Part shown: positions 1,180-3,074 of the stretch, piece after piece
Layout of the letters: each line of letters begins with the position of its first letter
How positions within the stretch are numbered: the first letter of the stretch is position 1
Assembly: GCA_027307335.1 (NCBI GenBank)
Contig: DAHUXD010000063.1
Coordinates: 1 to 64,000, forward strand
Reading direction: 5' to 3'
DNA length: 64,000 bases
Source: Acidobacteriota bacterium
Lineage (GTDB): Bacteria; Acidobacteriota; Thermoanaerobaculia; UBA5066; Gp7-AA6
Made by a program: the position numbers and the translations under genes
The notes under the pieces: model-generated
What the model was told of the DNA's origin: nothing
What the model saw: the letters and a program-made list of their open reading frames with translations, nothing else
Databases searched by the model: none

Positions 1180-2514
1180 TTGGAGAGCCCGCGCAAACCC
1201 GGTCTCTGGTCGGCGGCCGCGCTCGGCGTGGGCCACACGATCGGTGTCGGCATCTTCTTAACGCCCGCCGAGCTCGTGGCCGCGCTCGCGTCGCCGGCGC
1301 TGACGCTCGGGCTGTGGCTCGCCGGAGGACTCCTCGTGCTCGCCGGCGCGCTGACGTTCGGCGAGCTCGCGGCCCGCTTCCCCGAGTCGGGCGGCCTCTA
1401 CGTCTATCTCCGCGAAACGCTCGGACGCCGCGCGGCCTTCCTCTACGGCTGGCAGGCGCTCCTCGTCATGGATCCGGGGATCGTGGCCGCGCTCGCGGTG
1501 GGGCTCGCGCAGTACGCGGCGATTCTCTGGCCGGTCGCGGCCGGGCGCGAGAAAGCGGTCGCCCTCGCCGCGATCTGGCTGCTCGCGCTCGCGAACATGG
1601 CGGGCCTGCGGCCGAGCGTCGCCATGCAGAACGGGCTCACCGCCGCGAAGCTCCTCGCGCTCGCCGCGATCGTCGCCGGCGCGCTCCGGGGAACCGGCTC
1701 GCTCGACCATTTCGTCCCGTTCCTCGCCCGCCGCCCCGGCGCGCCGCCGCTTCCGCAGGCGATCGGCGTCGGCCTCATCGCGGTCTTCTATTCCTTCGGC
1801 GGTTTCTGGGAGGCGAGCCGGGTCGCGGGAGAGATCCGGGACCCCGCGCGGACGCTCCCCCGCGCCCTGGCCCTCGCGGTGGCAACCGTCACGGTCGCCT
1901 ACGTCGCGGTGACCGCCGCGCTGATCCTCCTCGTCCCGATCGGCGCCGCGACCTCCGCGGCGGACCTCGCGCGCGCCGCCGGATGGGCGCTCCTCGGGCC
2001 CTCGGGACCGGCGGCGCTCGCCGCCGTCGTCTGCGTGTCGGTCGCGGGCAGCGTCCTGGCGCTCCTGTTCATGGCCCCGCGCCTCTACGTCGCGATGGCC
2101 GGGGATGGACTCTTCCCCGCCGGGCTCGCCGTTCGGACGCCGCGCACCGGCGCGCCCGCCCGCGCGACCGCGTTCCTCGCGGCCGTGGCGAGCGCCCTCG
2201 TGCTCCTCGGCAGCTTCAGCCAGATCGTGGCCTACTTTCTCGCGACCGCGATGGCCTTCGTCGGCCTCGCGGCGTTCGGCGTCTTCCGCGCACGAAAGTC
2301 TCGGTCGCCCGCACCGGTCTTTCTCGTCCCGGGCTATCCCGCGACGCCGATCCTCTTTCTCGTCTTCCTCGCCGCCGTCATCGCCTCGATCGCGCTTGCC
2401 CGGCCGCTCCAGGTTCTGGCAGGCTTCGCGCTGGTCCTGCTCGGGCTGCCGGCATACGGTTTCGTCGTGGCGCGCGGCCGGTCCCGCACGGCAACGGAAA
2501 GAGAGGAACCATGA
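1180..2514 (+). CDS. APC-superfamily amino acid permease
   Basis: A 444-residue protein of the amino acid-polyamine-organocation transporter superfamily, with about 12 predicted membrane helices and a short charged tail. The first helix carries the conserved unwound-helix motif GHTIGVGIF at residues 18-26, and ELAARFPESGGLYVYLRE follows helix 2, both typical of the family. I start at the TTG at 1180: an in-frame TAA at 1168-1170 excludes anything upstream, and MESPRKPGLWSAAALGVG fits a family N-terminus. The start lies only 13 bp beyond repeat R1, so the repeat occupies the leader. The stop overlaps the start of the selenoprotein gene (ATGA, 2511-2514), so the two are probably co-translated. 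The substrate cannot be deduced. Confidence 0.88.
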   Translation: MESPRKPGLWSAAALGVGHTIGVGIFLTPAELVAALASPALTLGLWLAGGLLVLAGALTFGELAARFPESGGLYVYLRETLGRRAAFLYGWQALLVMDPGIVAALAVGLAQYAAILWPVAAGREKAVALAAIWLLALANMAGLRPSVAMQNGLTAAKLLALAAIVAGALRGTGSLDHFVPFLARRPGAPPLPQAIGVGLIAVFYSFGGFWEASRVAGEIRDPARTLPRALALAVATVTVAYVAVTAALILLVPIGAATSAADLARAAGWALLGPSGPAALAAVVCVSVAGSVLALLFMAPRLYVAMAGDGLFPAGLAVRTPRTGAPARATAFLAAVASALVLLGSFSQIVAYFLATAMAFVGLAAFGVFRARKSRSPAPVFLVPGYPATPILFLVFLAAVIASIALARPLQVLAGFALVLLGLPAYGFVVARGRSRTATEREEP

Positions 2515-3074
2515 CCTGGATCAAGACGATCGCGCCGTCGGAGGGCGACGCGAATCTCCGCGAGGCGCGCGAGAGCGAACGCGCGCTCTATCCGCCCGAG
2601 TACGCCATCCCGACGGGCCTGACCGACGAGGCCGGCTCGATCGTCGCGTCGCACTCGCTCATCCCCGAGGCGCTCCACCATGCGTTCGCGACCTTTGGCG
2701 CGCTGATGTCCCCGGAGCTTCCCCTGACGCGGCGCCAGCACGAGATGATCACGACCCTCGTCTCGGTGACGAACCGCTGCCACTATTGAATCGAGTCGCA
2801 CGCAGAGTTTCTGCGTCGGGTGACCCTGGACGAGACGCTGGTCGACGCGATCCGCCGTGATTACAGGACGGCCCCCATCGACGAGCGCGACCGCGTCATG
2901 CTCGACTTCGTCGTCGACCTGACCCGGGACGCGACCCGCATCACGCGCGCGCACCACGACCGCCTCCGGGCCGTCGGGTTCGACGACCGCAGCATCCTGC
3001 AGATCACGTTGATCGCGGCCTGGTTCAACTACATCAACCGGGTCGCGGACGCCCTCGGGGTGGGACGGCCGTAA
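2511..3074 (+). CDS. AhpD-like (carboxymuconolactone decarboxylase-fold) selenoprotein, CxxU, TGA read as Sec
   Basis: Reading through TGA 2787-2789 gives one 187-residue protein of the AhpD/CMD peroxidase-related family. The family signature E-x11-C-x2-C-x3-H is present as Glu78, Cys90, residue 93 and His97, and the TGA falls exactly at the second (peroxidatic-type) cysteine, giving C-H-Y-U. The family-like helical sequence continues in the same frame to TAA 3072-3074, including [15 protein letters not shown] and [20 protein letters not shown] hairpin fitting the bacterial SECIS rules starts 10 nt after the TGA. This makes Sec insertion much more likely than a nonsense mutation. AhpD-like selenoproteins have been predicted before in bacteria; the role is presumably thiol/selenol reduction of peroxides or disulfides. 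The start ATG overlaps the permease stop. selA, selB and selC are not in the window, so the machinery must be shown elsewhere. Confidence 0.85.
2790..2824 (+). promoter_or_regulatory. Predicted bacterial SECIS element
   Basis: Directly after the TGA the mRNA can form the stem ACGCAG (2800-2805) / CUGCGU (2811-2816) with apical loop AGUUU. A lower GUC/GAC helix (2795-2797 with 2822-2824) is possible below an internal loop. There are 16 nt from the UGA to the apical loop, and a G is among the first two loop bases. Both agree with the known bacterial SECIS consensus (16-37 nt spacing, G early in the loop). The hairpin lies inside the coding sequence, as bacterial SECIS elements do. Confidence 0.75.

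Follow-up and report, generated by a model that had tools for sequence, protein, structure and literature searches.

A predicted AhpD-like selenoprotein with selenocysteine at the second position of its CxxC motif in an Acidobacteriota genome

In the stretch of acidobacterial DNA analysed here (64,000 nucleotides, below called the window), the reading frame at 2511-3074 almost certainly encodes a true selenoprotein with selenocysteine (Sec) at codon 93, as judged by comparison with its homologues. Since AhpD-like CxxU selenoproteins, including ones that fall under TIGR01926, have already been catalogued, this gene adds to a known family and is a well-supported further member of it. Two details are new: the subfamily to which it belongs appears, from its aligned codons, to use Sec almost always, and about a third of its homologues have an APC permease gene directly upstream. 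The features to which we refer are the following:

1180..2514, forward strand: APC amino-acid permease gene (Pfam AA_permease_2, E=9e-45)
2500..2507, forward strand: Shine-Dalgarno-like AGAGAGGA preceding the ATG, by direct reading of the sequence
2511..3074, forward strand: predicted AhpD-like / peroxidase-related selenoprotein gene, 187 residues, Sec at codon 93
2742..2801, forward strand: active-site motif E78-x11-C90-x2-U93-x3-H97, corresponding to residues of the AhpD proton relay
2787..2789, forward strand: in-frame UGA (codon 93), predicted selenocysteine U93 in place of the second Cys of CxxC
2800..2816, forward strand: predicted bacterial SECIS hairpin ACGCAG-AGUUU-CUGCGU, assigned by bSECIS rules and conservation

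The frame, as read from the sequence, opens with an ATG at 2511-2513 and ends with a TAA at 3072-3074. The initial annotation had placed the TGA exactly on the second Cys of an E-x11-C-x2-C-x3-H motif and had the frame carrying on beyond it for 94 codons. The numbering of Glu78, Cys90, U93 and His97 proved exact, and direct translation gives 94 sense codons between the TGA and the TAA. Residues E78, C90, Y92 and H97 are invariant in our alignment of homologues (A1).

Among family models, the product scores 118.3 against TIGR01926 (peroxidase-related enzyme; curated cut-off 81.8) and 46.4 against PF02627 (CMD; cut-off 23, E=4e-12), whereas with TIGR00777 (AhpD) it reaches only 23.8 against a cut-off of 191.95, so that by its profile scores it is classed as AhpD-like and not as AhpD proper. 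Two other (seleno)protein families of the AhpD/CMD superfamily are matched weakly, and the product is a member of neither: NF041238 (AhpD_rel_CFYUT; score 55.6, cut-off 175), which the catalogue in a 2026 review gives as CxxU (PMC13188914), and NF053654 (YciW-related; score 30.6, cut-off 310). An AlphaFold model (pLDDT 78 overall, about 88-97 across residues 71-170) has the AhpD-like all-helical fold with the relay in place, the motif sitting on the adjacent helices 74-88 and 91-105. A fold search with this model returned the crystal structures 6k40 (DR1765), 2pfx, 2prr, 3c1l and 2oyo at TM 0.65-0.77, and phmmer matched the same set at 5e-25 to 1e-17. The product thus resembles these TIGR01926-type enzymes in fold and in its CxxC active-site region, but they carry Cys where Sec93 stands.

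The TGA is conserved at its exact position. We collected 80 homologue loci of other species from the GTDB genome collection, spanning four phyla and 67-77% identical to the product, and in 79 of them codon 93 is TGA, with intact sequence on both flanks and a frame that continues; the sole exception, in a Latescibacterota genome (L074), has TGC. Exactly one TGA was likewise present in 43 of the 44 matches at E<=1e-30 in a separate set of 396 genomes of the phylum, and distant homologues (about 35-43% identity) had TGA at the aligned codon in all 14 that were fetched. When the search was widened to E 1e-12, stop-free forms, presumably Cys forms, became common only above E ~1e-20. The comparison that the initial annotation had proposed, of Cys or Sec at position 93 among homologues, therefore gave TGA in 79 and Cys in one of 80, and the decayed downstream sequence that it had named as a counter-sign was not seen in the relatives. 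The gene accordingly shows what is expected of a bacterial selenoprotein gene, namely an in-frame UGA flanked on both sides by homologous sequence, with Cys or Sec in its place among the homologues.

Downstream of the TGA lies a hairpin that consists of a 10-nt spacer (2790-2799), ACGCAG (2800-2805), AGUUU (2806-2810) and CUGCGU (2811-2816), with 16 nt from the UGA to the loop. The 6-bp stem and AGUUU loop first described, 10 nt past the TGA, hold in their coordinates, but in the computed RNA fold A2806 and U2810 form one more pair, which makes the stem 7 bp long and leaves GUU as the loop. The bSECIS model of the 2026 review allows a loop of 3-9 nt, a stem of 4-16 bp and a spacing of 16-37 nt, with a G among the first two bases of the loop (PMC13188914); we also required an MFE at or below -7.5. 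The hairpin has a loop of 5 (or 3) nt, a stem of 6 (or 7) bp and a spacing of 16 (or 17), with G at loop position 2 of the 5-nt loop or position 1 of the 3-nt loop, and its core folds at -8.2 kcal/mol. The earlier claim that it obeys the rules for bacterial SECIS elements is thus upheld for the constraints published there, and also by conservation at the nucleotide level.

By itself the hairpin is weak evidence and counts only through its conservation, because permissive bSECIS-like hairpins are common after TGAs in this GC-rich window, where they follow 284 of 1103 TGAs (26%), near-exact geometry following three of the 1103. Folding energy alone was discarded as evidence, given this background and a shuffle z-score of -1.07. 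Codons 97-102 (CAC GCA GAG TTT CTG CGT) are essentially fixed across 90 close sequences, GCA making up 98% at codon 98 against 7% elsewhere in the same genes, and CGT 94% at codon 102 against 10% elsewhere, whereas Ser96 and Arg103, the residues on either side, are conserved but written with mixed codons that vary freely at synonymous sites. This pattern points to selection acting on the hairpin at the nucleotide level. The distant subfamily shows a compensatory change in the stem: the fourth pair is G-C instead of C-G in eight of 14 distinct sequences (C-G in two and C-C in four), and the loop reads N-G-[G/U] in 13 of the 14.

The same assembly contains, all over threshold, SelA (contig C29), SelB (C44), a tRNA-Sec with UCA anticodon (C28) and SelD (C22), so that the search for selA, selB, selC and selD that had been suggested as a check found each of them. 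Two further loci of this genome (L003 and L004) that exceed the gathering score of RF01852 were considered as additional tRNA-Sec genes and rejected, as ARAGORN identifies them as tRNA-Ser and tRNA-Leu. The genome also has a formate-dehydrogenase-like gene (L148:1942; G000:C33:112022) with an in-frame TGA in QARV-U-HGPTVA, a position that we take to be the usual Sec site of the formate-dehydrogenase family; the gene at 2511-3074 would therefore not be the only selenoprotein gene of the genome. The matches on C44 and C22 each hold one TGA, which we list as candidate Sec sites only.

One may consider whether this is instead an ordinary CxxC gene whose TGA stems from a nonsense mutation or a sequencing error and is followed by a hairpin by coincidence. 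The frequency of permissive hairpins after the TGAs of the window and the unremarkable folding z-score would be in keeping with such a coincidence, but the same codon is TGA in 79 of 80 genes from other species with no decay downstream, synonymous sites are frozen across the hairpin and the genome has the Sec machinery. Cross-species conservation and the synonymous freeze refute both versions of this explanation, whose probability we regard as practically nil. Judged from the sequence, it is also very improbable that suppression places a different amino acid, such as Trp or Cys, at the UGA. Against readthrough of this kind, the genome has the complete set of four sel genes, the hairpin that is conserved belongs to the bSECIS type, both exceptions to the TGA (L074 and L121) have Cys, and elsewhere in the window TGA is an ordinary stop, as in the permease gene (2512-2514).

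In the second of these exceptions, L121 (G016:C125:5461-6015), codon 93 is TGC, Cys90 has been replaced by Thr and the hairpin is disrupted. In its genome, G016 (99% complete), we found no SelA, no tRNA-Sec and no over-threshold SelB, and among the 42 genomes of the phylum that have the gene it is the only near-complete one of which this is true. Two further AhpD-like paralogues lie on the contig of L121. The Latescibacterota form (L074:4001-4564) has kept the SECIS hairpin letter for letter next to its TGC, in a genome with SelA and tRNA-Sec, which suggests a recent change from Sec to Cys; an intact hairpin is thus no guarantee of current Sec use. A quick tree joins L121, on a long branch, and the window gene as sisters with support 89; L074 is placed elsewhere, and the two Cys forms therefore look like separate Sec-to-Cys changes within the Sec group. 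At least one over-threshold sel match is absent in six TGA-bearing genomes (G059, G082, G210, G244, G268 and G279), most of which are incomplete or fragmented assemblies. In G279 (97% complete) we found the TGA gene, SelA and tRNA-Sec and no over-threshold SelB, which suggests that its SelB is divergent or missing.

We infer that Sec is inserted at U93 in the following way. With the ribosome at the UGA of codon 93, the downstream hairpin would recruit SelB with Sec-tRNA-Sec (UCA anticodon), Sec would be inserted, and translation would proceed to the TAA at 3072, giving an AhpD-like enzyme that is all-helical and belongs to the TIGR01926 group. The U93 selenolate, activated by Glu78, His97 and possibly Tyr92, would most likely reduce a hydroperoxide and become a selenenic acid, which Cys90 would resolve as an Se-S bond, and that bond would in turn be reduced by a dithiol, either thioredoxin or, as for AhpD, a lipoyl protein. 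We infer the attacking role of Sec93 and the resolving role of Cys90 from general knowledge of AhpD and from residue correspondence with the Mycobacterium tuberculosis enzyme, in which the relay consists of Glu118, Cys130, His132, Cys133 and His137 (PMC3141380). The spacing of Glu118, Cys130, Cys133 and His137 is that of Glu78, Cys90, U93 and His97, and His132 is replaced by Tyr92, as in PA0269, although M. tuberculosis AhpD is remote in sequence and topology and has Cys instead of Sec. For the peroxidase step, whose activity, substrate and reductant are all extrapolated from remote homologues, we have reasonable but limited confidence.

Alternatively, the selenoprotein may not be a stand-alone hydroperoxidase but may work mainly as a disulfide or thiol reductase or as an adaptor, the part that AhpD plays for AhpC in M. 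tuberculosis, or may act on an electrophile linked to the upstream permease. We consider this a serious possibility, if on balance a doubtful one. AhpD is indeed an adaptor and its relative PA0269 is only a weak peroxidase (PMC3141380), the fold covers other chemistries, such as that of the debrominase Bmp8, which our fold search also returned, and both the upstream APC permease in about a third of the homologues and the thioredoxin gene of Trx2 type that lies downstream in four loci of Gemmatimonadota would fit such a role. Against it, the full E-C-C/U-H peroxidase relay is retained, and the nearest characterised homologue, DR1765 of Deinococcus radiodurans (6k40), protects against H2O2, its CxxC cysteines being needed for full resistance (PMC8945050).

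The stop codon of the permease gene and the ATG of the selenoprotein gene share bases (ATGA at 2511-2514), and the two genes are therefore probably co-transcribed. Of the 97 close rows with enough upstream sequence, 32 have a permease homologue immediately before the gene and on its strand, a count that includes the window's own row and some rows that represent the same genome from two collections. These rows span Acidobacteriota, Gemmatimonadota, Latescibacterota and Planctomycetota (e.g. L032, L036, L047, L096 and L106). One could speculate, with little confidence, that the Sec-fixed AhpD-like subfamily and the APC permease form a two-gene unit, for example one that detoxifies or reduces something tied to the transported amino acid, and that the subfamily has spread together with its SECIS among these four phyla. 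Other neighbours were also observed. The thioredoxin gene, of the Zn-ribbon (Trx2) type, is close downstream in L047, L056, L093 and L046, all from Gemmatimonadota, and 21 loci (L040:4617-7154 and about 20 others) have an AMP-binding/acyltransferase fusion gene in the vicinity, downstream in 20 of them (all labelled Acidobacteriota), immediately adjacent in few and in none of the 21 together with the permease; for this reason the fusion gene plays no part in our explanation.

AhpD-like CxxU selenoproteins appear in the 2005 Sargasso Sea report (PMC1088965), are counted by the hundred in the GOS data (PMC2398784) and are catalogued under TIGR01926 in the 2026 review, with MCB9421940.1 as the entry (PMC13188914). 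The gene described here shares with that family (COG2128 in the metagenomic sets) the fold family, TIGR01926, a CxxC whose second Cys is replaced by Sec, and a bSECIS within the gene; unlike the MCB9421940.1 entry it comes from an acidobacterial genome, and the two are likened by family model. In the portions of the AhpD-like CxxU literature that we consulted, neither near-universal Sec use nor an APC permease neighbour was found described, and our literature search found no paper joining selenoprotein, Acidobacteria and alkylhydroperoxidase.

Standard gene callers would truncate or split the gene at 2511-3074, yet it very probably specifies a real enzyme. A subfamily that is nearly Sec-only offers a direct test of the benefit of Sec to an AhpD-type enzyme. 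In G016 the machinery was not detected, TGA has become TGC and the hairpin has decayed, which makes this genome a clean control, provided by nature, for the conversion of Sec to Cys. The predicted Sec enzyme is carried widely by Acidobacteriota.
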